A stretch of 64,000 nucleotides of DNA from Zunongwangia profunda SM-A87 (GTDB lineage: Bacteria; Bacteroidota; Bacteroidia; Flavobacteriales; Flavobacteriaceae), in assembly GCF_000023465.1 (NCBI RefSeq), contig NC_014041.1, positions 3,540,001 to 3,604,000 of the forward strand, read 5' to 3'. This document shows, piece after piece, positions 18,350-56,765 of the stretch. Below the pieces are notes generated by a model that saw nothing but the letters and a program-made list of their open reading frames with translations, made no database searches and was not told the origin of the DNA. Position 1 is the first letter of the stretch, and every line of letters begins with the position of its first letter. The position numbers were made by a program, and so were the translations under genes.

Positions 18350-18379
18350 AAGCGTATATTATGCGACTAATATACGCTT
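18350..18379. promoter_or_regulatory. Inverted repeat between zinc-ribbon gene and integrase
   Basis: AAGCGTATAT and ATATACGCTT are perfect inverted 10-mers with 10 bases between. They lie in the divergent gap and could be an operator for one or both genes. The arm overlaps the first possible integrase ATG (18361), which argues for a later start. Confidence 0.45.
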
Positions 18380-18408
18380 TACATCAATATTTTCTGGTAA
18401 TATTTAAA

Positions 18409-19536
18409 ATGGATTATTTTAGAAACATAAGCCTCTACCATTTAATGATCGGTAAACAAAAGATGATAGGGATTAAATTTCAACCCGATAAGGTCATCCA
18501 TGGACTTATTAAAAGTCTGGACAACCCCAAATGGAGCGACCATTTTAAGATGGTCTATCTACCCAATACCAAGGCAAACCGCTCCCAGATATTCATTACC
18601 TTTAAAGGGGTCGCATGGATCAACTATAACAGGTTTTATAACAATCGCCCTTCCACAACAGGAGCTGCCCAAATAGATAGTTCCTGGTTTCGTAACCGTG
18701 ATATACCGGGAGGTTACCGCCGTTGCCCAGAAAATTATCTTTTAAAACTGGAGCTTAAAAGGTACTCTGTTAGTACTATTAAAACATATGTCACTTTCTT
18801 TGAAAAGTTTATTAATCACTATTCACAGCGGGATATAGACAGTCTGGATGAATGTGAGATTAGATTGTTCCTGCAAAGTTTGATACAGGAGAATAAGTCC
18901 AATTCCTACATCAACCAGGCTATAAATGCCATCAAATTTTATTATGAAGTGGTCTGTGGGATGCCTAACCGGTTTTATGATATGGAGCGCCCCAGACGGG
19001 AACACAGACTACCCCAAGTTATTTCTAGAGAGGAAATATTTGCGATCATCGAAAACACTAATAATATCAAACACCGCTGTATTGTAGAACTCCTGTATAG
19101 TAGCGGTCTGCGCCGATCAGAACTTTTAAACCTGAAGCTTCAAGATATAGACAGTAAGCGCATGCTTATTAAAATTAAAGCAGGTAAAGGCAACAAGGAC
19201 AGGTTTACTATTTTATCTGAGAAATGCCTTGCCCATTTACGACAGTATTACAGAAAATGGAAACCGGAAATCTACCTTTTTGAAGGGCAACCGGGAAAAC
19301 AATATAGCGGAGCGAGTGTACTAAAGGTGGTCAAAAACGCCTCTAGCAAGGCCAAACCGAACAAAAATATAAGTCCGCACATCCTGCGCCACAGCTTTGC
19401 TACCCACCTTTTGGAATCTGGCGTGGATCTTAGAAAGATACAGGTTTTACTAGGGCATGGTTCTACTAAAACCACTGAAATTTACACCCATGTAGCTACG
19501 AATACTTTTAAATCAATTAAAAATCCTTTAGATTAG
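18409..19536 (+). CDS. Tyrosine recombinase heading the cassette array (integron-integrase-like role)
   Basis: The protein has an N-terminal extension (IGIKFQPDKVIHGLIKSL), a SAM-like core-binding domain (about 105-190) and a catalytic domain with all active residues: Arg in SSGLRRSELL, Lys in AGKGNKDR, HILRHSFATHLLE, LLGHGSTKTTEIYTHV with the nucleophilic Tyr about 16 residues from the end. The extra helix domain that marks true IntI between the Arg and HxxR motifs is absent, so it is a Xer-like recombinase. The frame is open from 18361; the ATG at 18409 fits related proteins better. It runs in the same direction as the cassettes, and its 3' end abuts a palindromic att site. Confidence 0.85.
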   Translation: MDYFRNISLYHLMIGKQKMIGIKFQPDKVIHGLIKSLDNPKWSDHFKMVYLPNTKANRSQIFITFKGVAWINYNRFYNNRPSTTGAAQIDSSWFRNRDIPGGYRRCPENYLLKLELKRYSVSTIKTYVTFFEKFINHYSQRDIDSLDECEIRLFLQSLIQENKSNSYINQAINAIKFYYEVVCGMPNRFYDMERPRREHRLPQVISREEIFAIIENTNNIKHRCIVELLYSSGLRRSELLNLKLQDIDSKRMLIKIKAGKGNKDRFTILSEKCLAHLRQYYRKWKPEIYLFEGQPGKQYSGASVLKVVKNASSKAKPNKNISPHILRHSFATHLLESGVDLRKIQVLLGHGSTKTTEIYTHVATNTFKSIKNPLD

Positions 19537-19553
19537 TCATCGCTAAAAAAGAA

Positions 19554-19590
19554 ATAAACGTACCGGTACGTTTATACATACGTTGTGTGC
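19554..19590 (+). other. attI-like primary insertion site
   Basis: Directly after the integrase stop lies a 22-bp perfect palindrome (19554-19575, centre ACCGGT) followed by CATAC and the core GTTGTGTGC (19582-19590). The same layout, palindrome plus CATACGTTGTRC, follows four decayed integrase tails later in the window. The first cassette begins at this core and ends with its exact complement at 20992. Confidence 0.75.
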
Positions 19591-19643
19591 AAGCTGAAAA
19601 GATAAACAGTGTGAATAACATTAAATAAAAGTTAATACAAATA

Positions 19644-20981
19644 ATGAGATATATATTTCTATTTACATTTTTGTTTTGCGTAGACTATTGTACAGCACAA
19701 GTTGACCAAAGCGACAAGCAAAGGCTCATTGTTACCACCGACCTTGGAGGCACAGACCCCGATGATATCCAATCTATTATTCATCTTTTGGTTTGCTCTA
19801 ATGTAATAGACATTGAAGGCCTTGTAAGCTCCCAAGTTTGGATGGACGATCCTGACAAGACCGACAAGATAATTGAATCTATAAATTGGTATGAAGAAAT
19901 ATTACCCAACTTAAAAAAGCACGCCCAAGGATATCCAGAGGCAAACTATTTAAAGTCAGTCACTAAGCGAGGCCAAGCAAAATCTAATATGTCTGGCGTC
20001 GGAAAAGGCAAAGACTCTCCAGGCTCGGAACTGATTATTTCTGTAGTTGACAATAAAGAAGATAAACGACCAGTATGGATTTCTGGATGGGGAGGCATGA
20101 ACACTCTTGCACAAGCCCTGTGGAAAGTAAAGAATACTCGAAGCAAAAAAGAACTAAGAGAATTCATAAAGAAAATTCGGATTTACGATGTGCTTGGTCA
20201 AGATGATGCGGGTGCATGGATTGCAAAAAGCTTTCCTGACATTGTTTATATACGCAACAAAAAAATCTATGGATGGGCTCCTTCTGACGAATGGACTAAG
20301 AAAAATGTTCAGAACATAATGCCATTAGGACAATATTATCCTGATAGGGTATGGGCAACGGAAGGCGATACACCTGCTTTTCTTTTTGTATATGCCAATG
20401 GATTAAACGCACCAGAACATATAGATTACGGAGGATGGGGTGGTCGATTTTCCACAGAAAAGATAAGTGGAATACGCGGCATGGATTTTATTGTCAAGAG
20501 TGGTAAAGATGAAACACAATATGACCCTTATTACATGTACGGCAGTACAGAAGAAGGCATTGACGCCATAAACAAATGGAAAAAACACATTTTTAATGAT
20601 TTTGCAGCCCGTATGTTGTGGACTACCACAGAAAACTATTCTGCTGTAAACCATCATCCCGTGGCTATTGTAGATGGCGATAACTCATTGAAAGTTATTA
20701 ATAAAAAAGCGATTTCTGGAGATTCCTTAATTTTTGATGCTTCGGCTTCAAATGATCCTGATGAGAATACGCTGGATTATAAATGGTCGGTTTATAATGA
20801 ACCAAGTACATATAAAGGTGCAATAACAATAGAAGAAAGTTCTTCATCGACATGTAAAATACTTGTACCTTCTGAGGCTTCAGGCAAGACCATACATCTT
20901 ATTTTAGAAATAACTGACAACGGGACTCCGGCTTTGACTGCGTATAGACGAATTGTAATAAATGTAGACAAAGAAGAATAA
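19644..20981 (+). CDS. Cassette 1: secreted DUF1593 nucleoside-hydrolase-like protein
   Basis: A signal peptide (MRYIFLFTFLFCVDYCTAQ) is followed by the nucleoside-hydrolase-like calcium motif TTDLGGTDPDDIQS and a long DUF1593 domain, then a C-terminal immunoglobulin-like domain with DASASNDPDENTLDYKWSV (about 350-445). Family members act on sugars or nucleosides outside the cell, but the substrate is unknown. At 445 residues it is the largest cargo near the primary att site and thus, by integron logic, the last captured. Confidence 0.8.
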   Translation: MRYIFLFTFLFCVDYCTAQVDQSDKQRLIVTTDLGGTDPDDIQSIIHLLVCSNVIDIEGLVSSQVWMDDPDKTDKIIESINWYEEILPNLKKHAQGYPEANYLKSVTKRGQAKSNMSGVGKGKDSPGSELIISVVDNKEDKRPVWISGWGGMNTLAQALWKVKNTRSKKELREFIKKIRIYDVLGQDDAGAWIAKSFPDIVYIRNKKIYGWAPSDEWTKKNVQNIMPLGQYYPDRVWATEGDTPAFLFVYANGLNAPEHIDYGGWGGRFSTEKISGIRGMDFIVKSGKDETQYDPYYMYGSTEEGIDAINKWKKHIFNDFAARMLWTTTENYSAVNHHPVAIVDGDNSLKVINKKAISGDSLIFDASASNDPDENTLDYKWSVYNEPSTYKGAITIEESSSSTCKILVPSEASGKTIHLILEITDNGTPALTAYRRIVINVDKEE

Positions 20982-20991
20982 CTAAAAGCCA

Positions 20992-21125
20992 GCACACAAC
21001 ACAGTGTAAAAACAATTGCTAGGTCTGTATTCATCGGAAAGTCCTGCGGACTTTACTAATGTTGTTTTTTCTTTTTCTATCATACAGACTAAAGCACGCA
21101 ACTGTTCTTACACAAACCGTTGGCA
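20992..21125 (+). other. attC-like site 1
   Basis: The site starts GCACACAAC (complement of the attI core) and ends ACCGTTGGC. The arms GTGTAAAAACAATTGC and GCAACTGTTCTTACAC pair with two mismatches, and an inner pair GTCTGTAT/ATACAGAC also folds. The overall form is that of an integron attC: a long imperfect palindrome with core motifs at its ends. Confidence 0.75.
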
Positions 21126-21155
21126 GTAATGTTTAATAAAAATTACCGTAAAAGA

Positions 21156-21686
21156 ATGATAAAAAAATTATTCCTATTGATTTTATTATCTCAAATTATG
21201 ATTTCGTGTTCTACGAAAAAATTTTCTGATAAAGCAACAAAAAAAATATATCCTGTTGAAAGATTTGGCCAATTAGATAGAAGTGTATTAGACTCAGTTT
21301 TGCAGAATGGTAGTAATACAAGTATTGATTCAAATAAGCCTTTAGTAATTATATATTATCCAGGAAAAGATAAATGTAATTCATCCGGTTCTTCAACGAG
21401 ACGTTCTACAAAAGTTTGGTACAATAAAATGGAAAAAGGAATTAATAAAATAGAGCCCTCCAATATAGTATATGTTTATAAAGATTCTACAGATTTGTTC
21501 GAAAGACATGATGGATTTAAGGATTGGAAACAAGACCCCAATAAAGTTATAGAAAAAACCTTTTTCAAAACACATCCACCATGTGGTGGATATGTATTAA
21601 TTTCTGATTCCGGAAGATATATTTCACACTTAGCAGAATTTGATAAAAAATTTTTGTGGCAGAGATTGGAACAATTGATTAATTAA
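21156..21686 (+). CDS. Cassette 2: lipoprotein of unknown function
   Basis: The ATG at 21156 gives MIKKLFLLILLSQIMISCSTKK, a clear lipoprotein signal with the lipid-anchored Cys near residue 18; the frame itself is open from 21120. The mature part has LVIIYYPGKDKCNSSGSST and a late THPPCGGYVLIS but no family I recognise. The cassette is bounded by GTTGGCAG (21119) and CTGCCAAC (21729), exact complements. Confidence 0.7.
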   Translation: MIKKLFLLILLSQIMISCSTKKFSDKATKKIYPVERFGQLDRSVLDSVLQNGSNTSIDSNKPLVIIYYPGKDKCNSSGSSTRRSTKVWYNKMEKGINKIEPSNIVYVYKDSTDLFERHDGFKDWKQDPNKVIEKTFFKTHPPCGGYVLISDSGRYISHLAEFDKKFLWQRLEQLIN

Positions 21687-21857
21687 ATATCAAATTACTT
21701 AAAAAAAATTAATTTCAACTCAACAAAACTGCCAACAACGGCTCATCGCAAATAACGGGTTTAGTCGAAAAAGTGCAATTTTAGAAACCAGGAAAGAATA
21801 CAAATAAACCGACAACTCCGCGGCCCTACTCCCGCAACTTGCGATAGCCGAGACCGT

Positions 21858-23475
21858 CAGACTGTCTCAAAACCTAAAAATTCCGTATTTTTAGGATATG
21901 GAATACCAACAAGGACAAGACCGCGAACAGCTTAGTCTTTACGCAACCTGTTTGGATGATATGATTCCCCAAGATAATAGCGTACGGCTCATTGATCAAT
22001 TTGTCAACTTGCTCGATTTATCCCAAATGGGCTTTCAAATTATAGCCACTCAAGGGAGGCCGCCCTATGACCCCGCAGATCTGCTCAAACTCTTTATCTA
22101 TGGCTATATGAACCAGATGCGATCTTCCCGAAGATTGGAGAAAGAGGCTTATCGTAACATTGAAATGATCTGGCTGATTAAAAACTTAAAACCCGATCAC
22201 AATACCATTGCCCGGTTTAGAAAAGAAAACCCAAAAGCCATCCGAAAGGTGTTCCGGCAAAGCGTGGCCATCGCCCGTAACTTCAACCTGATCGGGGAAA
22301 CACTTATTGCCGGGGATTCTACCAAGCTAAGGGCGCAAAACAGCAAAAAAAATAACTACAACAAAAAGAAAATCCAGCGCCATCTCGACTATATTGATAA
22401 AAAGCTCCAAGAGCATAACCAGGAACTGGCCACAGCTGATGGAGACCGGAAAAAAACCAAAGAAATTAAAGATCAAATAAAGGGGCGCAAACAGCAACAG
22501 GTCAAATACCGGGCAATACAAAAACAATTAGACAACGATGCTTCTTCTGAAAACCCACAACGATCAATTTCTGATCCCGATAGCCGGCATCAAATTGTAT
22601 GGGGAACCGTTACCGAGGTCTGCTACACCGCGCAAACTACCGTAGATGCCAAACATAAATTACTGATCGATTATAAACTCACCAATCAAAATGATAAAAA
22701 AGCAATGGGCATCATGCTCAGAAGGGCCAAGTCCATTTTACAATCAAATTCCTTTACTGCACTTTATGACAAAGGCTATCATACCGGAAGCGAGTTCCAT
22801 ATTGCCGATAGTATGGGTATCAATACCCTGGTGGCCATTCCGGCCATTGGTCGTAAAAGTCAGGCGCCAGATCCTAAATACAATGCTGAAAACTTCATTT
22901 ATAATCCTGATGATGACGCCTATACTTGCCCTCAGGGAAATACTTTATACAGCAATGGCTCCTGGTACAAAGCCCGCAACTATACCTTTAAACAATACAA
23001 GACCAGGGCATGCAAACAATGCCCGGTACGAGATAATTGCACTACTTCAAAAATCAATGGAAAGGTCATTCAGCGCAGTCAGTACACGCAAAACATTCAG
23101 GACAACGCTAAGCGCATTGCTCAAAGCGGTGCGCTGTATAAAAAGCGACAGGCCTTAGTTGAACATCCATATGGTACTATAAAGCGCCAATGGGGCTTTG
23201 ACCATATCATGACCAAAAGAGGCATTAAAGCAGCTTCAGCCGACTTTGGACTCATCGCACTGGCCTATAATTTAAGAAGATTGTTCAATAGTAAAATCGG
23301 CTTACACCAACTCATCGTATTACTATTTTTAAAGAAGTATATAAAAGCCTTTATAAGACTGAAAAAAGCTTTTACCCAATGCACAACAAAAAATACTGAT
23401 CATAGTATAAATTTTGTTTTCAATCCTAATTTCAACTATTTTTAAAACCAAAGCAGGTAGTTTTGAGACAAACTG
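21858..23475 (+). mobile_element. IS1182-family insertion sequence, complete
   Basis: The 1618-bp element has terminal inverted repeats CAGACTGTCTCAAAAC and CAGTTTGTCTCAAAAC (second read on the minus strand), and a 4-bp target duplication CCGT. Four-base duplications inside palindromes are usual for this family. It interrupts attC-like site 2 in the 3' arm. Confidence 0.9.
21898..23445 (+). CDS. IS1182 family transposase
   Basis: The 515-residue DDE transposase has an N-terminal DUF772-type domain (PYDPADLLKLFIYGYMNQMRSSRRLEKE), the first Asp in IAGDSTKLRAQNS, the second Asp in FTALYDKGYHTGSEF, a zinc-binding ACKQCPVRDNC motif and the C-terminal Glu in ALVEHPYGTIKRQWG. It is intact and fills the element, so it may be active. 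Confidence 0.92.
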   Translation: MEYQQGQDREQLSLYATCLDDMIPQDNSVRLIDQFVNLLDLSQMGFQIIATQGRPPYDPADLLKLFIYGYMNQMRSSRRLEKEAYRNIEMIWLIKNLKPDHNTIARFRKENPKAIRKVFRQSVAIARNFNLIGETLIAGDSTKLRAQNSKKNNYNKKKIQRHLDYIDKKLQEHNQELATADGDRKKTKEIKDQIKGRKQQQVKYRAIQKQLDNDASSENPQRSISDPDSRHQIVWGTVTEVCYTAQTTVDAKHKLLIDYKLTNQNDKKAMGIMLRRAKSILQSNSFTALYDKGYHTGSEFHIADSMGINTLVAIPAIGRKSQAPDPKYNAENFIYNPDDDAYTCPQGNTLYSNGSWYKARNYTFKQYKTRACKQCPVRDNCTTSKINGKVIQRSQYTQNIQDNAKRIAQSGALYKKRQALVEHPYGTIKRQWGFDHIMTKRGIKAASADFGLIALAYNLRRLFNSKIGLHQLIVLLFLKKYIKAFIRLKKAFTQCTTKNTDHSINFVFNPNFNYF

Positions 23476-23716
23476 CCGTTAGGTGCAATTCCCCACATGA
23501 AGAAAAAGCCTGTTAATTTCTTGAGCTAACGACAAAATGATAATATAAAAAAGTAATGGGAATTGAGAAATTGAAAAAACATAACTGATTAATAATCAAT
23601 AACTAAATTTGACGTTAGTCAGAATTTGAGACAAAAAATTCGGCTAAATGAGAAAAAACATAAAAAACAATAAACCAAATTTTCTATTTTGCACCTTGTT
23701 ACAGATTTGAAACTAA

Positions 23717-24160
23717 ATGAAAAGACAATTATTTTTTGGGAGTTTTTTGACCTTGGTTTTCGGTGGACTAATTTACGTACTGTTCCGAACTGCAACGCTC
23801 AAAATGTTCGGTTGGTACGAAACTATTGGTTTGGGCGGACTGACAAACGGAATGCGAAAATTGACTTTTAAATTTGCCAATGAACTTCCCGAATGGATTT
23901 TGTTCTCGCTACCAGACGGACTTTGGATTTTCTCGTATGTTTGCTTAATGTTGGCTATTTGGCAAAATTCTGTTTCGCTTAAAAATGCCTTGTGGATTTT
24001 CATAATTCCAATTTTGGCAATCGGTAGCGAAATCGGACAACTATTTGGACTTATAATTGGAACATTCGATTTGACCGACTTGTTTTTTTATATTTTCGGA
24101 ATGATTTTACCATTCATATTTTTTACAAAAACCATTAACTTAAAATTTAAATTTCAATGA
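23717..24160 (+). CDS. Cassette 3, gene 1: VanZ-like membrane protein
   Basis: The 147-residue protein has four hydrophobic helices and the VanZ-type pattern LPDGLWIFSYVCLML followed by IGSEIGQLFGLIIGTFDLTDLFFYIFG. VanZ-like proteins are found in teicoplanin-resistance clusters and widely elsewhere with unknown function. Its stop overlaps the next start (ATGA), so the cassette carries a two-gene unit. Confidence 0.65.
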   Translation: MKRQLFFGSFLTLVFGGLIYVLFRTATLKMFGWYETIGLGGLTNGMRKLTFKFANELPEWILFSLPDGLWIFSYVCLMLAIWQNSVSLKNALWIFIIPILAIGSEIGQLFGLIIGTFDLTDLFFYIFGMILPFIFFTKTINLKFKFQ

Positions 24161-24684
24161 AAAAAAATCTACAACACCTAATTTCAGCTTCGGCTTTAGC
24201 ATTATTTGTATTCATCGCATTTGGAAGTATGGATGACGAATCTTCAAACGAACCGACAGCGTCTGAAAAAATTCAAGCTGATGAAAGTTTAACTCAAGCT
24301 CAAAAAGACAGTCTTTTAGTAATAGAACGACAAAAAGAAATAGAAACAAGAGAAAACCAAACCGTTTATGCTTCAGACCTGTATTATACCTATCAACAAA
24401 ATGAAGTGAGTACTGATAATAATTTCAAAGGCAAATATTTTTATGTTGAGGGATTTGTCGAGTACATAAAGAAAGACATATTGGACGATATTTATGTTAC
24501 TTTAAAAACTGGCGAAGTGATTGGGAGTGTCCAATGCTATCTTGACGATGCCAATGTTGCAGCTCAATTAAAAAAGGGACAACGAATTACAGTTTACGGA
24601 AAATGTGACGGACTTATTATGATGAACGTTTTAATGAAAAACTGTAAGGTCGTTGAAAATTTATCTGACTTGAAAAACCAATAA
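24157..24684 (+). CDS. Cassette 3, gene 2: OB-fold (tRNA_anti-like) protein
   Basis: After a hydrophobic N-terminus (ISASALALFVFIAFGS) and an acidic linker, residues about 75-170 match the tRNA_anti-like OB-fold domain: LYYTYQQNEVSTDNNFKGKYFYVEGFVEYIKKD and later LKKGQRITVYGKCDGLIMMNVLMKNC. Such proteins occur in phage and mobile regions, with no defined function. It overlaps the VanZ-like gene by 4 bp. Confidence 0.65.
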   Translation: MKKNLQHLISASALALFVFIAFGSMDDESSNEPTASEKIQADESLTQAQKDSLLVIERQKEIETRENQTVYASDLYYTYQQNEVSTDNNFKGKYFYVEGFVEYIKKDILDDIYVTLKTGEVIGSVQCYLDDANVAAQLKKGQRITVYGKCDGLIMMNVLMKNCKVVENLSDLKNQ

Positions 24685-24689
24685 AAACT

Positions 24690-25001
24690 GCACCTAAAAA
24701 TGGTAACTGTTGCACAAGCCTATATTTCTAAAAAAAGAGAATTATCCTGATTTTTCGTAATAGATAAATTATTGTTATTCAAATTTATCGTATTCTTTAA
24801 AACTACTTTTATTTCGAATTTTGATTCAAAAAGAACTTGTGCAACAGGCACAATGGCTATAAATAATTGCTTGTTCTTGCCTACTTCTGAAAATTGCTGG
24901 CGCCAGTTCGCTTCGCTCGTGTCTCGCGGATTTTCAGCTTGGTGTGTACTTGCAAAGTTTCGTGCTAAATCACGCAACTACTCATAGCCGAGACGTTACC
25001 C
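24690..25001 (+). other. attC-like site 3, split by a MITE
   Basis: GCACCTAA at 24690 complements the cassette-3 core GTTAGGTGC. After the MITE the site resumes as CAATGGCTATAAATAATTGC and closes with GCAACTACTCATAGCC and ACGTTACCC (24994-25002). The arms GGCTAT...ATTGC and GCAACTACTCATAGCC pair with small bulges. This is family B, seen again at 31186 and, less well, 45767. Confidence 0.7.
24707..24847. repeat. 141-bp MITE-like element, copy 1
   Basis: Perfect 12-bp terminal inverted repeats, CTGTTGCACAAG and CTTGTGCAACAG, enclose A+T-rich non-coding sequence. A second copy lies at 53392. In both, the flanks ATGGTAA on the left and GCAC on the right are shared, and the host attC core is split after AA. 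Confidence 0.75.
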
Positions 25002-25019
25002 AACATTTGAAAAAAACGA

Positions 25020-26738: not shown

Positions 26739-26770
26739 TTTTCTAAGAGAATTTATTAATATAGCTACAG

Positions 26771-26901
26771 TTTGTAACGGTTCATCGCCAATAAGCGGCA
26801 CCGTTAGAAAGAAAATATTTAAATTGACTAACGAACCAATACTAAGCCGACAAATCCGCGTCCCTTACTCCGCCAACTAGTTACAAACGAAAACGTTGTA
26901 A
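26771..26901 (+). other. attC-like site 4 (family A)
   Basis: Arms TTTGTAACGGTTCATCGCCAA and GCCAACTAGTTACAAAC pair, and the closing core is ACGTTGTAA (26895). The interior has the family-A segment AAGCCGACAAATCCGCGTCCC. Confidence 0.7.
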
Positions 26902-26911
26902 ATAATATAGA

Positions 26912-27291: not shown

Positions 27292-27613
27292 AAACTTACG
27301 GGAAACCTTGGCATATGCACATATTGATCCTGAATTATTTTTTTATTGCAAGAACCGGAAACCTGTGGATAACTCGGATCGATTTGTGCCAGTGATTTCG
27401 GTTTAAATTATGCCACTTTCCGAAAATCTAAGTTTTCTACATAAAATAAGATGAAGATGAATCTTCAAAAAGTATTTCAAACTAAGGTTGTTGGGGATTT
27501 TTGGGTAGATTTTAAAGTCTGTAAAGTTGTCCAAGCCAGATTATATTTTTAATTTTTTAAGTACCTTCGAAAATGAGTGCAAAGCACATTTGATAAAATC
27601 TTGTCATTTAGAA
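27292..27613. other. Spacer without a recognised gene
   Basis: Short frames such as that containing ASDFGLNYATFRKSK look like remnants. No attachment site can be made out between cassette 5 and the RhuM/Fic gene, pointing to a deletion. Confidence 0.4.
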
Positions 27614-28626
27614 ATGAACCATCCTAAAATTAAAAATAGTGAAGTTATTATCTTTAGACCTCGAAGTGGGCAAACTGAATTTGAAGTAGTCCTGGATGGG
27701 GAGAACGATACTGTCTGGGCTACCGAACAACAAATAATGGAGTTGTTTGGCAAAGCGAGAAGAACAATCGGAGAGCATATTAAAAACATTTATGAAGAAG
27801 GCGAACTTGATAGGGAATTAACTTGGCGGGAATTCCGCCAAGTTCAAAGAGAAGAGAAACGGGAGGTTTCAAGAAAAGTTGCTGCTTACAACTTAGATAT
27901 TATAATTTCAGTTGGGTACCGTGTCAAATCTCAGGTAGGTACCGAGTTCATAAAATGGGCGACCCAACGACTTAAGGAATATCTTCTCAAAGGTTACTCA
28001 ATCAATAAAAAACTGCTCAAAAAAGAACAAAATAAGGTTGTAGCATTACAAAAAGAGCTAAATAACCTAAACAAAGCCCTCTTTAAAACACAAAAAACAC
28101 TAACTGACGGCTTTTTGTCAATAATTTCTCATTATTCAAAATCTTTTGAACTACTCGAAAAGTACGATAAAGATGAATTATCCTCTGACAACCTCAATGA
28201 AGACGTAATCTATGTAATTAACTATAATGACGTTAATGGTGCAATTGAGAAATTACGATCAGATTTACTGAAAAATGGGAAGCAAGCAAACTTTTTGGCA
28301 ATGAAAAAGACGATGCTTTTAGAGGGATTTTGGGCAGTATCTCACAAACCGTTTTCGGTAAATTGGCCTATCCAACGATTGAGGAGGAAGCAGTACAACT
28401 ATTATATTCAGTTATAAAGGGGCATCCATTCAGTGATGGTAACAAACGGATAGGATCTTTTTTATTCGTTTGGTTTCTTGAACAAAACAACCATCATCTT
28501 AATGAAAGTGGAGAACGGAAAATTAATGATAATACGCTTGTTACCTTAGCTTTAATTGTTGCTCAAAGCCTTCCTGAACAACGAGAAACAATCCAAAAAT
28601 TGATAATAAATTTAATAAAAGAATAA
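27614..28626 (+). pseudogene. RhuM-Fic family gene with frameshift
   Basis: From the ATG at 27614 the RhuM domain is clear (VWATEQQIMELFGKARRTIGEHIKNIYEEGEL, SVGYRVKSQVGTEF, FIKWATQRLKEYL). The Fic part lies in another frame: GNEKDDAFRGILGSIS and the AMP-transfer motif HPFSDGNKRIGSF, ending at 28626. The shift maps to the T run at 28292-28296; one extra T would restore a single protein of about 337 residues. It was a Fic AMP-transferase-type toxin or virulence protein and is probably inactive, unless the T run varies. Confidence 0.8.
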
Positions 28627-29203: not shown

Positions 29204-29604
29204 TTTCAATTCTCTTGTTAATTCCGTGGATAATATTTGGATTTAAAAATCAGCGTAAAAATTTCATTGGACTTAATCAAACAAAAAAGTCGCTGACTTT
29301 ATTTTTAGGAATCGAAATCGCCTTTTATCTAGTTCTCTACTTGACTTTACCAGAACCAACTTCAAAAATTGCTGGACTTCAAAGTTTTTCGTGGAATTAT
29401 TGTATGCTTTACTACGCAAAAGGAATCGTCCCTACTTGGTTAATTGGAGAATCTATCAACGGAAATCTCGGAGACAAAATTGACTTAAATTATCAATGGA
29501 TATATTTAATTGTAAGTTTAATAATGGACTATTTGATTTTATTAATCATAAGTCTGAAAATAAAAATATTGTGGAATAAAAAGCCAGCACACAGCAACGT
29601 GTAA
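29200..29604 (+). CDS. Small membrane protein
   Basis: The 134-residue product has three hydrophobic segments (about 2-15, 29-49, 98-122) and no recognised family. Its start overlaps the stop of the fused frame (ATGA). An attC-like site begins inside its last codons, as is usual for tightly packed cassettes. Confidence 0.5.
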   Translation: MISILLLIPWIIFGFKNQRKNFIGLNQTKKSLTLFLGIEIAFYLVLYLTLPEPTSKIAGLQSFSWNYCMLYYAKGIVPTWLIGESINGNLGDKIDLNYQWIYLIVSLIMDYLILLIISLKIKILWNKKPAHSNV

Positions 29605-29720
29605 GCGCAATAACGGCTGAATTTTCTACCGAAAATTCAACTCGTTTTGTTATATTGGTTACGCCAGCGGAAAGTACTCACGCACTTTCCCTTTACCGAC
29701 GCTTACAAAACCGTTGCCAC
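29592..29720 (+). other. attC-like site 5 (family C)
   Basis: CAGCAACGTGTAAGCGCAATAACGG and CCGACGCTTACAAAACCGTTGCC form the outer arms. GAATTTT/AAAATTC and GGAAAGT/ACTTTCC hairpins fill the loop. The closing core GTTGCCAC (29713) opens the next cassette. Confidence 0.7.
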
Positions 29721-29724
29721 ACCT

Positions 29725-30444
29725 ATGAAAAAATTGACAACTTTATTATTCGCACTTTTTCTCATCATCTTGTTTTCTTCAAATGGTGTGCATAAAAATA
29801 ACCTATCGCAAACAAGTTTTGGAGAAGAAGTGTTTTATGAAATATTTCCCTACCTTATAGATTCTATCCATACCGATAGTAGATTAAGTGCACCGCCACC
29901 ACCAGAATATTTTAAATTTATGGATTCCGTAGGAATTAATCAAGATGGATTTGAAAAATGGAAAAAATCCGCGCAATATAAAAAATGGTATGAGAACTGG
30001 CAGAAGAAAAAGGACTCTATAGAACAAGATACAACAAAAGTTTACCTGACAATGCCCGACTCTATTAACAGAACAGAAGAAAATGATATAAAGGAATTAA
30101 TCCAACATTTTAGCCATCAAAATATTTCGCCCCATTCCTTAATTGAATCAAATCGATTCAGCATTAATTTATCAAAATTGAAAAGTAATCACACGAAAGT
30201 AAGATTCATATATAATTCTGAACTTCCTGGTGACGGTAAGTTTTGGCGCAACGATTATGGAATAATGATCGATGCCTCGCTTAGTTTTACTAAAATAGTA
30301 TTTGATAAAACTAAAAGCTACGGAGTTTTAAACGCTGGTTATGTAAGCGCTCCTTTAAATGGATATGGGGTTCGGATTTTCATAAAGAAGGACGAAAATG
30401 GCCAATGGATAATTGATGAAGTAAAAGGAACCTGGATTTCATAA
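29725..30444 (+). CDS. Secreted protein of unknown function
   Basis: The ATG at 29725 gives a good signal peptide (MKKLTTLLFALFLIILFSSNG), 12 bp after the cassette core; the longer frame from 29647 runs through the att site and is not used. The mature part of about 215 residues has a proline patch (SAPPPPEYF) and no recognised domain. Confidence 0.6.
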   Translation: MKKLTTLLFALFLIILFSSNGVHKNNLSQTSFGEEVFYEIFPYLIDSIHTDSRLSAPPPPEYFKFMDSVGINQDGFEKWKKSAQYKKWYENWQKKKDSIEQDTTKVYLTMPDSINRTEENDIKELIQHFSHQNISPHSLIESNRFSINLSKLKSNHTKVRFIYNSELPGDGKFWRNDYGIMIDASLSFTKIVFDKTKSYGVLNAGYVSAPLNGYGVRIFIKKDENGQWIIDEVKGTWIS

Positions 30445-32760: not shown

Positions 32761-32764
32761 ACTT

Positions 32765-42611: not shown

Positions 42612-42624
42612 TAATTTGAAAAAA

Positions 42625-43038: not shown

Positions 43039-43048
43039 AAGAAAACTA

Positions 43049-43177: not shown

Positions 43178-43210
43178 TAATGCGAAAAAAAATAAAACGT
43201 CACACCTACA

Positions 43211-44639: not shown

Positions 44640-44799
44640 ATTGGTCTATTTTAGCTTATATTTTAACAGTAGCCGTTAGGCTGGGTTGATTTAGGATAAA
44701 TAACAGTTCTAATGGGACTACAATCCATAAAAATGACTAAAATTTAGACGTATGTAGCTGTAAATACTTTTTAAAAAATAAAAAATGGTTTTAGATTAG
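44640..44799 (+). pseudogene. Decayed integrase 3' end, copy 4
   Basis: TATGTAGCTGTAAATACTTTT and the A-rich tail to TTAGATTAG match the nucleotide sequence of the integrase 3' end. TTTTAACAGTAGCCGTTAGGCT upstream matches copies 2 and 3. Many stops interrupt it. Confidence 0.6.
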
Positions 44800-44805
44800 T
44801 AGCTT

Positions 44806-44848
44806 CAATAATAGATAAAAAACTTGTCATATCATACCTCCGTTGCAC
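44806..44848 (+). other. attI-like site, copy 4 (degenerate)
   Basis: The palindrome is largely lost, but ATCATACCTCC and the core GTTGCAC (44842-44848) keep the position and spacing. Confidence 0.5.
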
Positions 44849-46684: not shown

Positions 46685-46864
46685 CAAAATTACCACAACC
46701 GGCGTTCGTGTGGCTATTACAGCTAAATACGAACGCCGTATTGACTGCCGCTAAACTTCTCTGGAAAAATAGCTGTTTTAGCTTAAACTATATTGGACGT
46801 TAAGCCTCTGTTTATGAATAGTCACTCGATTATCAAATGTAATGGGCTAACCCGTTCAAAAAAC

Positions 46865-46928
46865 CACTGAAATTTATGTGCACACAGCCACAAATACTTT
46901 TAAAACAATAAAAAATCTACTAGATTAG
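46865..46928 (+). pseudogene. Decayed integrase 3' end, copy 5
   Basis: The frame TEIYVHTATNTFKTIKNLLD matches the integrase end TEIYTHVATNTFKSIKNPLD, including the catalytic Tyr, and ends in TAG. Upstream, TGACTGCCGCTA is shared with copy 4. Confidence 0.75.
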
Positions 46929-46947
46929 TGTTTTAACTAAAATGGAT

Positions 46948-46984
46948 ATAACACAGCTTGTTGTGCTATCCATACGTTGTACAC
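46948..46984 (+). other. attI-like site, copy 5
   Basis: ATAACACAGCTTGTTGTGCTAT is an imperfect palindrome, followed by CCATAC and the core GTTGTACAC (46976-46984). The cassette ends with GTGTACAAC (48017), an exact complement. Confidence 0.75.
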
Positions 46985-46996
46985 AATACTCCAAAA

Positions 46997-48009: not shown

Positions 48010-48053
48010 AAGTACTGTGTACAACAAAGCTCTGAGTTAAAAATCAAATCATT

Positions 48054-49013
48054 TTAGCTCAATTTTGAAATAAAACCTTCATCATAGGGCATTCCGCTTT
48101 TTGCAATTGCGAAGGCCTGTTTCAAAAGCTTGTTGGTCACTGCAATCAATGCTAGTTTTTTGCTTTTTCCTTTTCCCACAATCCGCTCATAGATTTCCCT
48201 GCAGGCCTTATTTACAGGCTGAAAATGCACATAGGAACAAGAGGTTACGAAGTTTCTGGTTCCCTACCTTACTGATTCTGCTCCGTCCCTTTACACTAGT
48301 TCCTGATTGACGTATAGTTGGTGTAATTCCGACATAGCTACATAATTGCCCTGCTTTAGCAAATTTATTAAAGCCATCGGTGATTATGATTAAAAACAAA
48401 GCCGTCTTTGTTCCTAGCCCAGGTATCCCTTTTAACAGCGTAAGCTGACCTTGTAGGTCTTGTTTTACTAATAAGAGTAATCGCTCTTCCAAAGCGTTAA
48501 TCTCCTTGTTCAAGTGTTTTAAATCTCTGGTAAGAGATTGATAAACTACTCTTGAGGGAATGCCTAAAATTTTCTCCCCGTGAAGATTATTTTTTGTAGC
48601 GGTACGTTTTTTAGGTAGTTGTCAAGGAGTCGAAAAAGCTGTAAGCACTCTGCCTGTGATTCTGTCAGTGCGTTATAAAGCGGCACTTCATTTACTTTTC
48701 CGTACGCACAGATGGCTTTGGCATCGCTCTTGTCCGTTTTAACCTTTGCCAATTTCATTTGGATAAAACGCTTTACTGACAAAGGATTCACTACCGATAC
48801 GGTAATGCCGTTTTTGAAAAGAAACTGAGCAAGCCTATAGTGATAATAGCCTGTAGCCTCCATTACTACTAGTGATCCAACAGCTATGCTTTTTAAGAAT
48901 GAAACAAAGCCTTTACTCGTGTTTGAAAACTGGTGGTGTATATCACCTGAATCTACTACATCAAAGACATCTTTACTGATGTCTACCCCATAAATTTTGG
49001 TATATTTATTCAT
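48054..49013 (-). pseudogene. IS110 transposase with two frameshifts
   Basis: The N-terminal DEDD domain is intact (IYGVDISKDVFDVV, VVMEATGYYHYRLA, VKTDKSDAKAICAYG). A shift near 48565 moves to LTLLKGIPGLGTKTALFLII and GQLCSYVGITPTIRQSGTSVKG with the catalytic Ser, and a second near 48235 to NKACREIYERIVGKGKSKK. The C-terminus ends at 48054. Three frames are needed, so it is probably inactive. Confidence 0.8.
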
Positions 49014-49221
49014 ATAAAAAAAATGACGAAAGGACAGTCTACTTTGGTTTTACCAACTTAAAAACGAGATCCTGGTCTCAGAGAACTAAACGAAATTAAA
49101 GTAGAAAAGAGCGGGGATTATCAATGTTGACGGAATCAAAAGTTCCAACGGTAACCTTAACCTTACTCCGCTCTTTTGTGCTTTCAGGTTAACTATCAAA
49201 ATTTAGAGAATTTAAACTTCA
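49014..49221 (-). ncRNA. Candidate IS110 bridge-RNA region
   Basis: In IS110-group elements the non-coding end upstream of the transposase encodes the guide (bridge) RNA. This end has a strong pair AAAGAGCGG/CCGCTCTTT and a stretch that could form internal loops. Assignment rests on position alone. Confidence 0.35.
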
Positions 49222-49865
49222 GTCGGTTCATCTCAAATTACGGGTATTATGGAAAAAGTGTAATTTTAGAAACAAGGAATGAAAATGGTTAAGCCGACAA
49301 GTCCGTGTCCCTACTCCCGCAACTTGCGATAGTGTGCCGAGCAAACAATGACCGGCAATAAATAGTCATTGTGAACTATAATTAAGATGGTAGAATCGAC
49401 CTACCGGTGTCGTCTTATAGGAGAAGGCATCAAACCAACCAAAGATGCTTTGGTAAAGAGCCAAGGTATTGAGCGTTTAGGAAACGGCCAGTCAAGAATT
49501 GGTCAGGTATGATTAAGAGAGATGAACAAAAGTGAACCCCTTCTGAGGTGTCGAGAAGTTGCTACATCCTGTCAAAAGCCACGAAGTATCGCACGGGGTT
49601 AAAGAGTATAGCAGTTACCTATTTATTGGCTATACGGCAGGCGTCATTCAGGGGGCATGACTCTTATTCAGGCTTAGTTATGGAACTCGGGAACCTGACT
49701 ATAGATGCTAAGGGAAATACACAATAGGCTCAACCTAGAGGTAGAATACCAATGCTGTTTTCAGGGACGGACTAACCCGTAGTAGCAATGAAGTTCCTGT
49801 AATGGGAATAGAGCAAAGGGGTTAGGTTATACAGTTACGTTACATTTAACAACTCAGTTTTGAGG

Positions 49866-51119
49866 ATGACTTTATGCAATGAAACAAAATCAATACCTAT
49901 AAGCAAAGCTATGATATGGCAAGCTTATAAAAGAGTGCGCGCCAACAAAGGAAGTGCAGGGATCGATACAGTAAGCATTGAGCAATTCGATGAGAGTTTA
50001 TCAAAGAACCTGTACAAACTTTGGAATCGTATGGCATCGGGAAGTTATTTCCCCCCTGCGGTCAAAGAAGTGGAAATCCCGAAAAAGGATGGTAAAGTCC
50101 GTAAATTAGGGATTCCTACGATAAGTGACCGTATCGGGCAAATGGTGGTAAAAATGTACCTGGAGCCCCGTTTAGAAAATGTATTCAATCCAAACTCCTA
50201 CGGATATAGACCAAACAAAAGTGCCCATCAGGCACTTGAACAGGTCAGGAAAAACTGTTGGAAAATGGATTGGGTTATTGATCTGGACATTAAAGGTTTT
50301 TTTGATAACATTGACCATCATAAAATGATGCTTGCTATAGAAAAACACGTTCCTGAAAGATGGGTTAGGTTATATATAGCACGTTGGCTCGCAAGTCCAG
50401 TAATGACAAAGTCGGGAAATTTAGTCTCTAACCAGGGAAGAGGAACTCCCCAGGGAGGGGTTATAAGCCCATTACTGGCCAACCTTTTCCTTCACTATGG
50501 TTTAGATAAATGGCTGGAACAGAACGACAATACGGTGAAATTCACACGGTATGCCGATGATGTGATTGTGAACTGTAAAAGTCAAAAGCACGCAGAGCAA
50601 ACACTTGAAGCTATCAAAAGCAGGATGCATCAAATTGGTCTGGAGTTACATCCAGAGAAAACCAAAATTGTATACTGTAGAGATTACCGAAGGCAAGAAA
50701 AGTATTCCAATGTGAAGTTTGATTTTCTAGGTTATTCTTATCAACCTAGAACTACAAAATCGAAGAAATCAAACGGACTCTATCTTGGCTTTGATTGCGG
50801 CATAAGTATAAGTTCGAGGAAACGAATTGCAGATAAACTTGAAGAATTGAAAGTAGAGCGAATGACTTCTGATCGTATAGTAGGAATTGCTGCCATTCTC
50901 AATCCAATGATTAGGGGATGGGTGAACTACTATGGTAAATTTAGAAGGTCAATGCTACACAAAGTCTTCAAGTTATTGAATAATCGAATCGTGAAATGGG
51001 CAAGAAAAAGGTATAAACGTTACAAAACCAGTATAAAACGTGCCTATCAATGGTTTGAAAGGATTAAGGAACAATATCCAAAACTATTTTATCATTGGCA
51101 GGTGGGATTTGTATGGTAA
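49866..51119 (+). CDS. ltrA: Group II intron reverse transcriptase/maturase
   Basis: The ATG at 49866 (MTLCNETKSIPISKAMIW) is preferred over the upstream TTG. RT motifs are VIDLDIKGFFDNIDH, GTPQGGVISPLLANLFLHYGLD and FTRYADDVIV (YADD). The maturase domain holds LGFDCGISISSRKRIADKL and NPMIRGWVNYYGKF. It ends without a DNA-binding or HNH endonuclease domain. The protein assists splicing and copies the intron into new sites. All motifs are intact. Confidence 0.92.
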   Translation: MTLCNETKSIPISKAMIWQAYKRVRANKGSAGIDTVSIEQFDESLSKNLYKLWNRMASGSYFPPAVKEVEIPKKDGKVRKLGIPTISDRIGQMVVKMYLEPRLENVFNPNSYGYRPNKSAHQALEQVRKNCWKMDWVIDLDIKGFFDNIDHHKMMLAIEKHVPERWVRLYIARWLASPVMTKSGNLVSNQGRGTPQGGVISPLLANLFLHYGLDKWLEQNDNTVKFTRYADDVIVNCKSQKHAEQTLEAIKSRMHQIGLELHPEKTKIVYCRDYRRQEKYSNVKFDFLGYSYQPRTTKSKKSNGLYLGFDCGISISSRKRIADKLEELKVERMTSDRIVGIAAILNPMIRGWVNYYGKFRRSMLHKVFKLLNNRIVKWARKRYKRYKTSIKRAYQWFERIKEQYPKLFYHWQVGFVW

Positions 51120-51142
51120 TTTGTAATTTAGATTGTATAACA

Positions 51143-51217
51143 AGAGCCGTATGATGGGAGACTATCACGTACGGTTCTGTGAGAGGCTTGGGGTGAAATT
51201 CCCCTTGTCTACTCGAC
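51143..51217 (+). ncRNA. Group II intron domains V-VI
   Basis: GAGCCGTATGATGGG and CACGTACGGTTC pair in the manner of domain V, followed by GAGAGGCTTGGGGTGAAATTCCCC, a domain VI-like stem, and the 3' end CTACTCGAC. Confidence 0.75.
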
Positions 51218-51330
51218 ACCGTAACCGTTGTGTGTAAGCTTGGAAAAAAGCTACGACCGAAAAAATTTCACGATAATGTCCAAAAGCGAAAGCCTTAATT
51301 GTCTTTAGAATAAATCAATACTTTTAAAAA

Positions 51331-53391: not shown

Positions 53392-53531
53392 CTGTTGCAC
53401 AAGCCTATATTTCTAAAGAAAGAAAGTTATCCTGATTTTTTGTAACAGGTAAGTATTTAATTTTAAGTTGTTTAAAATTATTTAAAACTACTTTTATTTC
53501 GAAGTTTGATTCAAAAGAACTTGTGTAACAG
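53392..53531. repeat. 140-bp MITE-like element, copy 2
   Basis: Terminal repeats CTGTTGCACAAG and CTTGTGTAACAG. It again splits an att left core (GCTGCCAA...CACCGTG). Interior sequence is clearly related to copy 1 at 24707 but has diverged. Confidence 0.75.
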
Positions 53532-53668
53532 GCACACCGTGTATAATTCATTGCTAGTAATTACCTACTTACGAAAATGCTCGTGGATTTTCTACCAGTC
53601 GTTCGGTTTTTATTCGCTGAATTAGGTGCTTAAACACACCACTAATCATACACAATCACGTTAGCCGC
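53532..53668 (+). other. attC-like site 16
   Basis: Arms CACCGTGTATAATTCATTGC and CTAATCATACACAATCACG pair; the loop carries GAAAATGCTCGTGGATTTTC as in site 9. The closing core is GTTAGCCGC (53660-53668). Confidence 0.65.
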
Positions 53669-53700
53669 AAGTTAAAAGAAACGTACGTATAAAATCAAAA

Positions 53701-54078
53701 TTAAGAAGTATAGCAAGCTGAAATTTCTTTTCCTCCTTCATACAGTTTTCCCCAATCGCAAAGACTTTCTAAAATAGGAACTAAATCCAAGCCTTTATTA
53801 GTCAAAACATATTTAATTCCAACAGGAACAGTATCCGGAATTTCCTGTTTCACCAAAATAGCGTGAGTTTCCAACTCTTTTAATTGTCTTGCCAAAACGG
53901 TTTCCGAAATATTAGGCAATTCCTTCTGTAATAAATGAAACCGATTATTGCCCTGAGAAATGGAATAAACAATTTGAGATTTCCAACGACCGCTTATCAT
54001 TGCAATTGCTGAATTTAACTCGCAAACCTGAAATAAAAATTGTTCGTTTTCGAAATTTGTTGATTGTTTTTTTCTCAT
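53701..54078 (-). CDS. HxlR-family transcriptional regulator
   Basis: From the ATG at 54078 (MRKKQSTNFENEQFLFQVCELNSA in part), it shows the HxlR winged-helix pattern: AIAMISGRWKSQIVYSISQGNNRFHLLQKELPNISETVLARQLKELE with a conserved Cys near residue 20. HxlR proteins sense electrophiles or oxidants and control neighbouring genes. It is the only minus-strand cargo gene and is divergent from the esterase at 54162. Confidence 0.85.
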   Translation of the reverse strand: MRKKQSTNFENEQFLFQVCELNSAIAMISGRWKSQIVYSISQGNNRFHLLQKELPNISETVLARQLKELETHAILVKQEIPDTVPVGIKYVLTNKGLDLVPILESLCDWGKLYEGGKEISACYTS

Positions 54079-54771
54079 AATCAATGATTTAAATACTAAC
54101 AATTTTGTTAGCTATTGTTTTAAAAACAGTCTTTTGAGACCTTTGATAAAAATACAAAAAAGTGAAAAATTTCGTTTCAATTACAGTATTTATGGTATTG
54201 ACACAATCCCTATTTGCTCAAAAAGTTTTTAGGATAAAATCGGACAACCTTGAAACAAAAGTCCCAATTCTTGTACAAAAACCCGAGAATTATAAATCTA
54301 CAAAAAGTTATCCATTGGTTTTTATGCTTCACGGATATAGTGAAAATTATGAGCAATGGAATAAAACTACCGATTTGAAAAAATTAGCAACTGATTACCA
54401 AATGATTTTAGTTTGTCCTGAAGGCTTTGTCAATTACTATTTGAACAGCCCGAATTTGGAAAACTTTTATTATGAAGATTTCTTCTTTCAAGAACTTATT
54501 CCAAAAATCGAGAAAAAATATAGTATTGAAAAGAAGAATATTTTTATAACTGGTTTAAGTATGGGGGGGTACGGAGCATTAAGTTTATTCATAAAACATT
54601 CTAAGTTTTTCAATACTGCTGCTTCAACAAGCGGAGCTCTCGAATTTGACTATGAAAACTTCAAAGAAATCAGCTTGAAATTCTTTGAAAGTGAGCGAAT
54701 GACAAAAGATTTAGAAATGACATTGGGAAACCCTGGACTTGCAACAAAAAACTGGACAAATAGTTGAATGA

Positions 54772-55626: not shown

Positions 55627-55637
55627 AAGGTGTTGTT

Positions 55638-55976
55638 TTATAAACCTGTATTTTTCTTGTCGCTCGCGGAGAAGATGCTGATGGCCTTTTTTAAGATGTC
55701 TCGTTCTAACTCGGCTTCTTTTAATGCCTTTTTTAATCGGGCTATCTCTTTTTCTTCATCGGTCATTTTAGGATTACCACGGCCAGGGAAACTGTTGTTA
55801 CCGTAATCTTTTAACTCTCTACGCCAACGGTAAAGTACAGATGGAAATATATCCAAGTCTTCACATACTTGTTTTACATTGCCTTTAGCATAACTTAACT
55901 CGACTGCTTTTTGTTTAAATTCTAAGGTGTAATGTTTAGATTTTCTTCTCATAATTGCTAAGGTAATAACTAGCAA
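55638..55976 (-). CDS. IS3/IS150-type OrfA
   Basis: The helix-turn-helix and leucine zipper are in HYTLEFKQKAVELSYAKGNVKQVCEDLDIF and EIARLKKALKEAELERDILKKAISIF. The likely start is the ATG at 55952 (MRRKSKHYTLEFKQ). GACAAGAAAAATACAGG near its end may be the frameshift site. Confidence 0.88.
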   Translation of the reverse strand: MLVITLAIMRRKSKHYTLEFKQKAVELSYAKGNVKQVCEDLDIFPSVLYRWRRELKDYGNNSFPGRGNPKMTDEEKEIARLKKALKEAELERDILKKAISIFSASDKKNTGL

Positions 55977-56442
55977 AAATATTCTCTCAACTTAGTGTCC
56001 GGTCTAATGTAGTAATTCCACCCAAAAGAAAATGATTGGAAAAAATTTAGTATTTCGTCTTTAATTGAAAGCAATCGTGACTTTACTAAAGGATTTTTCA
56101 TTGACTGCGGTTTAGATGACCCATTGCTTTCAAATACATTAAAAATCAAAGATTTGGCATTATCTAAAAAATTACCCATAAGATTTTCAGTTCAACCCGG
56201 AGAACACAACACAGAATATTGGAGAAAATCCATTGAGTATCATTTTATCTATTTTAAGCAGCATCTAAAATCGATTTAAAAGACCTTCGAAACAATGAAA
56301 GTTTATATTATTTGAAAATCTCGAATTCACTTCAACAGATCAATATTTTATAAATGATTCGATTAAAATAGAACAAACAAATCAACAACAACCAGAAAAC
56401 TTGGTTTTCTTCCGTTGTATATGTGAAGTGCAAAAATCACTA

Positions 56443-56575
56443 TTGCCAACAGCGATTCATCACAAATTCCGGGTATTGTGAAAAAAGCGTAAATTTAGTG
56501 AGGAAAGAAAATGGTAATCCGACAAGTCCGTATCCCTACTCACGCAACTTGCGATAACCGCAAACCGTTTTGCGC
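56443..56575 (+). other. attC-like site 17 (family A)
   Basis: Left core TTGCCAAC, arms GCGATTCATCACAAATTCCGGG and CACGCAACTTGCGATAACCGC, closing core GTTTTGCGC (56567-56575). It is the last recognisable site of the array. Confidence 0.75.
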
Positions 56576-56612
56576 AGGCTAAAAAAACCTCTTAGATATA
56601 TTCAAATTTTAG

Positions 56613-56765
56613 ATGAATCCAATAATCAATATTTTTAAAAAACACATTAATTTTTCAAATTTTTGGATAAAAAATGGTTTTATACTTGTAGCCTTATCCA
56701 TAGTAGTAAATCATCTTGTAGCGCCTGAACATTTCCCACTAAATAAAGCCTACAGATTCCCTTAA
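56613..56765 (+). pseudogene. Last cassette gene: membrane protein truncated by IS3
   Basis: The frame (MNPIINIFKKHINFSNFWIK, then NGFILVALSIVVNHLVAPEH) has one hydrophobic helix and runs into the IS3 left end at about 56751, where it stops. The remaining cassette and any later ones are gone. Confidence 0.55.

Follow-up and report, generated by a model that had tools for sequence, protein, structure and literature searches.

The 64,000-nucleotide (nt) stretch of the Zunongwangia profunda SM-A87 chromosome studied here (contig NC_014041.1, positions 3,540,001 to 3,604,000; hereafter the window, with positions counted from its first letter) carries, with a probability of about 0.9, a chromosomal integron-type system whose integrase lacks the IntI domain and is predicted to insert and excise circular gene cassettes. 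Features that can be read from the DNA are the order integrase, attI, cassettes, the cassette boundary at G|TT, complementarity between the start and the end of a cassette, covariation within hairpins and precise whole-cassette duplications in relatives. In the proposed mechanism, circular cassettes with one gene each would be taken up by the integrase at the palindromic attI that directly follows the integrase gene, and would be excised through hairpin attC-like sites, with the enzyme probably acting on the folded bottom strand; the integrase of this locus is presumably the enzyme that performs the recombination. A preliminary description of this DNA had proposed an integron-style array and knew of no such system in this group of bacteria. 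This agrees with the literature searched, within which we found no account of one (preprints and most subscription papers lay outside its scope). Integron surveys seek IntI with its extra domain and the type of attC that belongs to it. The system would also make it possible to ask, in a natural setting, if folded single strands can be recombined without the IntI domain and how the strand is chosen.

The genomes were sampled as one per species and comprised 199 genomes of the family, including that of Z. profunda, and 247 of the class, taken as Bacteroidia. Sites were searched with a covariance model, R1, which was made from an alignment of 45 sites of 26 other loci, none of them from the window. 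Site matches were accepted at E < 0.05 in the window, E <= 1 in the own genome, E <= 0.01 in closed genomes and E <= 1e-4 in the class sample, and integrase relatives at E <= 1e-40 in the family sample and the closed genomes and E <= 1e-50 in the class sample. At most 12 candidates per genome were scored in the class-wide R1 scan, and the site counts hold among the matches listed.

The integrase gene (18361-19536, plus strand) encodes a XerA/IntI-like tyrosine recombinase of 391 amino acids with the Pfam domains PF13495 and PF00589 and an N-terminal extension of about 120 residues. Its score with the IntI profile TIGR02249 was 207.7, below the curated cut-off of 265, and the match was split in two pieces; with NCBIfam NF040815 it scored 228.2 against a cut-off of 220. 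Alignment with VchIntIA gave two blocks, between which 20 residues of the query face 63 of IntI. Two conserved boxes are 58 residues apart in 116 of 120 homologs (the best 120 of 7983 matches; 4 not measurable) and in 38 of 43 locus proteins (59 in two, three not measurable), compared with 100 residues in all 19 IntI proteins measured, from 20 loci. The additional domain of IntI around patch III, a 42-residue insertion, is absent from the integrase. According to the accessible part of PMC8138268, this insertion is not fully conserved in its subgroup, yet essential for integron function. In a quick tree, the IntI rows formed a starred clade together with 5 viral rows, and the integrase group stood elsewhere, with 11 viral rows inside its branch (support 87). 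The viral rows came from a scan that gave 80 loci with more distant integrases, of which 25 were considered and 20 put in the tree; a scan of genome contigs gave 2 loci. The branches of this tree are long and its root is uncertain, and the branching order of Xer, IntI and the integrase group is not settled by it. By domain and tree, as far as sequence comparison can tell, the integrase is outside the IntI family, as the preliminary description had already stated. Its named relatives come from Flavobacteriaceae, e.g. Arenibacter and Maribacter. The AlphaFold model (mean predicted local distance difference test score 73.5, predicted template-modelling score 0.50) had VchIntIA (2a3v), the best match, and XerA as its nearest folds, and its fold for the N-terminal extension is only suggestive. 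A Pfam search with residues 1-123 gave no match; one relative had a weak match to DUF5710 in the N-terminal part (E 0.0025, under the cut-off).

Directly behind this gene lies attI (19554-19591, plus strand), which consists of a perfect 22-bp palindrome (19554-19575, arms ATAAACGTACC and GGTACGTTTAT), 6 nt and a GTT core at 19582; the preliminary description had noted a palindromic primary site behind the recombinase gene. Adjacency of attI to the integrase gene is a property of integrons, and transcription of the integrase gene runs in the direction of attI and the cassettes. A core could be picked by eye in 44 of 46 integrase loci, and the sequence diverges past it. Of the 31 loci in the close group, 19 have a perfect palindrome, each arm at least 10 nt long, which ends 3-6 nt before GTT and whose letters vary from locus to locus; another motif, TATAA(A)CNAGTT, is seen in most of the loci that are more distant (identity about 34-47%). 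As a sign of a cassette promoter Pc at the integrase/attI end, the motif TAnnTTTG, which we take to be the Bacteroidota-type -7 promoter box, was looked for 5' of attI; 14 of 44 loci have it, 10 of them at -52 to -56, versus 6.8% of random windows; none was found upstream of attI in the window locus.

If exchange takes place at G|TT in a circulating cassette, the first bases of the cassette would pair with its own end and not with that of its neighbour. With the attI cores picked by eye, 35 loci had 5 kb or more of downstream sequence for this test. In 28 of them the start of the first cassette was complementary over at least 9 nt to the end of that same cassette, and the same starts compared with the other loci gave 76 of 1190; at thresholds of 8 and 10 nt the numbers were 30 and 23 loci. 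Such complementarity is the mark of a circular form, and the boundaries at G|TT with self-complementary ends appear to be those of integron cassettes. Chaining from cassette to cassette gave 265 cassettes in 33 of 44 loci; 240 of these are followed by another and have a median of 658 nt from GTT to AAC. In these 240, the seven variable bases match the own start at 6.71 positions and the start of the next cassette at 2.82 on average, the first figure being raised by chain building; since these own-start statistics are conditioned on that procedure, the first-cassette test is the unconditioned one.

Between the cassettes lie imperfect hairpins with AAC...GTT ends, as attC sites do, mostly about 142-150 or 200-210 nt long and with an AAC to GTT span of mostly 115-129 or 175-199 nt. 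The consensus RYYYAAC / GTTRRRY was not found in them. GTT[AG] is conserved, the further positions are free, and C precedes GTT in 98% of the 240 sites; the earlier statement that the core does not follow GTTRRRY is thus correct for the positions past GTT[AG] and wrong for GTT[AG], which is kept. Thirteen of the 18 hairpin pairs have changed on both sides, with 153 covarying cells as compared with 50.0 in shuffled and at most 57 in slid controls. A geometric scan for AAC...GTT hairpins was tried as an array marker and rejected, as it did not separate the arrays from the background. Counts of hairpins by themselves, 132 candidates over arrays of about 92 kb in total and 22 in an 18-kb control, were no better than chance.

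The stems of these sites contain a directional signal. On the top strand, the non-Watson-Crick pairs of the L stem are A.C in 438 cases and C.A in 26; of the 240 stems, 237 have at least one A.C, 227 have one at position +17, and 154 are without a bulge. Because a top-strand A.C is a T.G wobble on the bottom strand, the bottom strand folds better. Computed stabilities favour it for 218 of 235 sites in the integrated form and for 234 of 236 in the circular form, and random cassette windows went the opposite way (65 of 228). Classical attC sites use extrahelical bases, according to the portion of PMC2727003 consulted. We infer that directional A.C mismatches, present as T.G wobbles on the bottom strand, replace them here as strand signal. 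Only two canonical attC sites were on the expected strand in four stretches with an IntI locus, too few for a strand comparison.

Evidence for movement came from related arrays. In one locus, cassettes L140_11 and L140_17 have five others between them and show no difference over their 432 nt and site; the shared sequence extends past the unit by 4 bases on the left (counting G) and 5 on the right (counting GTT), and the flanks are only 42% and 30% alike. The same kind of duplication, at different positions and with unrelated flanks, was seen in L147_17/19 and L167_4/20, and cassettes L140_14 and L141_2, from two genera, are 91% alike. A further pair, L149_2/4, has a long left flank in common and is a larger duplication.

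Integrase relatives were found in 126 of the 199 family genomes. The preliminary description had advised a search of related genomes for the integrase together with the sites. In the class sample, sites occurred in 142 genomes and integrase relatives in 126; both were present in 97 of the 247, sites only in 45, the integrase only in 29 and neither in 76 (Fisher p 2e-10). Among the matches listed, 16 contigs bear both, with 54 sites on them; 37 of the 37 sites within 30 kb of an integrase are downstream of it on the same strand, and 17 are farther off. Seven closed genomes had 55, 65, 110 and 31 R1 matches in the four with an integrase and 0, 24 (G059) and 40 (G071) in those without one. In one genome (G040), at least 73 listed sites over 69 kb follow a single integrase on its strand. 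The four stretches with a true IntI contained no R1 site. Draft contigs of five genomes (G138, G049, G075, G103 and G128) stop 167-208 nt past the integrase match, as expected if repeated attI or array sequence breaks assemblies, and such arrays will be under-counted in draft genomes. With sites in 142 of the 247 class genomes, such a system would alter the tally of bacteria that capture genes in this way.

The Z. profunda genome is a single contig of 5,128,187 bp. The second integrase (C1:1401354-1402526) is 99% identical to the first and is followed by the same attI. The two loci are 97% alike over 17633-19592, a similarity that ends 11 bases into the first cassette; both first cassettes begin with GTTGTGTGCAA. 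From the cassette at 41087-41781, the part with the open reading frame (ORF), 41106-41579, recurs in the second locus with 90% identity over 476 nt. At E <= 1, R1 had 28 matches in the whole genome, namely 12 in the window, 7 in the twin locus and 9 scattered singles, so that 19 of 28 fall within two arrays that make up 1-2% of the chromosome. Two 20-kb stretches (L134 and L170) of a genome of the same genus, G100, contained none of the cassettes of either array as a whole; similarity was confined to site-length pieces, an insertion sequence (IS) and the AraC-type gene, at 67%. The two outcomes named beforehand as fatal to the integron proposal, cassette content identical in all relatives and palindromes spread over the genome without link to the integrase, were therefore both absent. 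Both integrase loci stand beside related TonB-dependent-receptor genes in the same order (12641-15676 in the window, 761-3766 in L015), and pieces of the two neighbourhoods are 67-79% alike, a resemblance that points to an old duplication of the region.

Several results weigh against the integron-type interpretation or some part of it. Recombination by the integrase is predicted from sequence only. No site was found at E <= 1e-4 in 29 of the 126 class genomes bearing an integrase, and the orphan arrays of G071 (40 sites) and G059 (24 sites) had no integrase in the one flank searched in each. The test for complementarity of the first cassette failed in 7 of 35 loci, and only 18 of the 265 chained cassettes have a whole-cassette relative within the set. 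With regard to the strand signal, one or two bulges are present in 86 of 240 stems, so that extrahelical bases are possible in part of the sites, and the bottom strand was the more stable one in only 6 of 12 window sites, or 13 of 20 when the twin is included.

Three other explanations were considered. A classical integron with a true IntI that has diverged in sequence only would have the same layout, G|TT boundary and circular-form complementarity, and both the TIGR02249 match at 207.7 bits and the best fold match to VchIntIA 2a3v speak for it. It is very unlikely, since that match stays under the cut-off and comes in two pieces, the defining 42-residue insertion is missing (58 versus 100 residues), the IntI rows, with 5 viral ones, are a separate starred clade in the quick tree, and R1 finds nothing in the four IntI stretches searched. 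In pdif-type modules, short dif-like XerC/XerD sites flank the modules. Were mobile modules moved here by the host XerC/XerD at dif-like sites, with the integrase as a bystander, single genes between repeated sites and orphan arrays would be seen as well, and the integrase is itself related to Xer. The sites, however, are long hairpins with AAC/GTT ends and not short dif sequences, although no search with a dif model was made; together with attI behind the integrase in 44 of 46 loci and the 37 of 37 nearby listed sites downstream on the integrase strand, this leaves the explanation with hardly any probability.

Finally, the palindromes might be terminators or miniature inverted-repeat transposable elements (MITEs) forming a passive cluster that is rearranged by homologous recombination. 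Some sites within one array are near copies of each other, MITE-like inserts and IS are present, 9 of the 28 sites in the own genome are isolated, and the L149_2/4 pair shares its long left flank. Homologous recombination between repeats does not, however, produce a complementarity of start and end that is specific to each cassette, nor duplications that lie between unrelated flanks and break off at either end only a few bases from G|TT; we consider this explanation extremely improbable. The integron-type system thus remains the preferred interpretation, and the integron proposal of the preliminary description was right in substance, the sequence tests fitting an integron, with the correction that the array is partly decayed.

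In the window, R1, which derives from sites of other genomes, found 12 sites, all on the plus strand and none on the minus strand; a further plus-strand match at 33007 (E 0.62) was not counted. The ORFs past attI are mostly on the plus strand and mostly unrelated to one another, in line with the one-way, mixed cargo reported before. Of the 17 palindromes then announced, 15 could be placed, 12 by R1 and 3 by repeat families or as an intron-split site. The cargo includes a Sde182-like protein, an S41 peptidase, a beta-lactamase-family protein, a sigma factor, a thioredoxin-like protein, a WYL regulator, an alcohol dehydrogenase with an AraC regulator, a glyoxalase, ATP-grasp, TPM-domain and YCII proteins, and others. 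Minus-strand ORFs within the array are an HxlR-type gene (53701-54102) and several transposase ORFs. All features given below are on the plus strand unless stated otherwise.

Cassette 1 (19582-21118) bears the Sde182-like gene with a nucleoside-hydrolase-like domain (19644-20981); its start, GTTGTGTGC, is complementary to 20992-21000 in the attC-like site at 20985-21132 (R1 91.8 bits). Cassette 2 (21119-21736) contains an ORF without Pfam match (21120-21686), and its start is complementary over 9 nt to 21728-21736. The attC-like site that follows (21735-21857, 27.9 bits, model positions 15-137) has had its R' end (23478) split away by an IS with a DDE transposase (21898-23445). The next cassette (23478-25008) has two ORFs (23717-24160 and 24157-24684) and an attC-like site at 24831-25008. 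Further attC-like sites lie at 26763-26908 (degenerate, 23.1 bits, E 0.049, repeat family D17), 29580-29726 (53.9 bits), 31186-31303 (core part only, 50.1 bits, model positions 15-137), 32641-32764 (degenerate, family D17, missed by R1), 35619-35758 (70 bits) and 36829-36949 (degenerate, families D2 and D3, missed by R1). Two more cassettes lie at 41087-41781 (ORF 41116-41574 with a weak TPR match, site 41631-41781, 10-nt own complement 41637-41646) and 41768-42617 (ORF 41922-42437, site 42473-42617, 10-nt own complement 42479-42488), followed by a site at 43041-43183 (37.4 bits). Another is at 53514-53673 (57.8 bits), and the last one recognised in the array is at 56435-56580 (28.2 bits).

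The site at 48016-51240 has been opened by an IS110-family element, with transposase pieces on the minus strand (48208-48513 and 48564-49013), and by a group II intron in its L' arm (about 49332-51217; reverse transcriptase 49860-51119); the halves of the intron-interrupted site are near 49206-49331 and 51218-51240. With Rfam at gathering scores, nothing but three parts of group II introns was found in the DNA. In classical integrons, both introns and IS110-type elements that aim at attC are known. The array of a Chryseobacterium plasmid (L130) likewise contains an IS110-family element and a group II intron. A MITE-like element of about 140 bp with inverted ends TGTTGCACAAG and CTTGTGCAACA is found inside three sites, in the window at about 24708-24846 and 53393-53531 (the latter, repeat D5, at the left end of the site at 53514) and in the second locus at about 15649-15787; it seems to target the sites. 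With these IS, MITE-like and intron insertions, and as an own complement of 9-10 nt is kept at only 5 of 17 tested boundaries, the window array is, on the evidence of its sequence, old and partly decayed; arrays are well kept in several relatives, as is the second copy at its start.

Both arrays contain repeated pieces of the 3' end of the integrase gene, each with a copy of attI, several of them preceded by a core like GCCGTTAGGC/GCCGTTAAGC. In the window they lie at 37849-37980 (residues 368-391), 40946-41096 (residues 362-391, the next cassette starting from GTT 41087), 44685-44845 (residues 355-388, with a degenerate attI copy) and 46827-46985 (residues 359-391, cassette start GTT 46976), and in the second locus (L015+L016) at 20216-20340. 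The cassette starting at GTT 46976 has a 10-nt own complement at 48016-48025. A further site cluster in G040 is also headed by an integrase 3' fragment, and the same type of fragment heads a cluster in L200. This looks as though attI had itself moved in the way a cassette does, or as though former array heads had become stacked. A PADLOC search of 10 cassette ORFs matched candidate defence families only for the RhuM-type protein of 27527-28417 (PDC-S23/S05).

Relatives also occur on plasmids. On a Chryseobacterium plasmid the integrase is followed, on the same strand, by four R1 sites. In a Flagellimonas plasmid, two sites flank a gene of the dihydrofolate-reductase family, an arrangement on the strand opposite to the plasmid's own recombinase and not behind it. 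Of 48 Acinetobacter records with an integrase match, the one examined, plasmid p80-1-2-tetX3, encodes a shorter integrase piece, 53% identical to residues 159-391; an attI-like palindrome and a GTT core (L131 5700-5910) lie between it and tet(X3), and R1 found no attC-like site behind tet(X3) in L131. We lean, with some reserve, towards the wider proposal of a second integron lineage outside the IntI clade, widespread in Bacteroidia, whose integrase, derived from Xer and without the IntI domain, would recombine hairpin cassettes and read the strand through G.T wobbles; it would hold arrays of 70 or more cassettes and be the source of the recombinase-attI platform of tet(X3).

Among known systems, the IntI integrons (class 1 and the Vibrio superintegrons) have in common with this one the integrase, attI, a one-way array of single genes, R''/R' cores, exchange at G|TT and a hairpin attC with an unpaired spacer. 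Their cassette ends also self-pair, over 9-11 nt (PMC2727003, accessible part). Unlike them, the system described here has no IntI insertion, its attI, a 22-bp palindrome, follows the integrase gene on the 3' side, and its sites have directional A.C mismatches, with 154 of 240 stems free of bulges. The Treponema integron enzymes presumably carry the IntI insertion. In these 'reverse' integrons, the integrase is also transcribed toward attI, in the cassette direction; unlike the integrase here, their enzymes are treated as IntI in the accessible portions of PMC3607928 and PMC4909258. The integrase passes the XerA entry NF040815, 'site-specific tyrosine recombinase/integron integrase', a generic name; the entry shows no cassette system. 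IntI-type integrons exist elsewhere in the same phylum, but nearly all in other classes: TIGR02249 was above its cut-off in 105 of 395 genomes of the phylum, 1 of 98 in the window's own class (G233) versus 104 of 297 others. IntegronFinder 2.0, in the part of PMC9024848 available, names one complete integron in Bacteroidetes, that of Salinibacter, and reviews count Bacteroidota among the integron phyla (PMC8618304 and PMC9668308, accessible parts); the TIGR02249 counts suggest that the Bacteroidota integrons of the reviews are IntI integrons of other classes. The xerD-tet(X) pairs, lastly, share with our system an integrase piece, an attI-like palindrome and a GTT before tet(X3). In the accessible text of PMC7473080 and PMC11194056, the xerD beside tet(X) is of unknown role, and the former, which places one beside tet(X14), notes no integron there; the system described here is a possible explanation for this xerD, a question left open in the part of PMC7473080 consulted.

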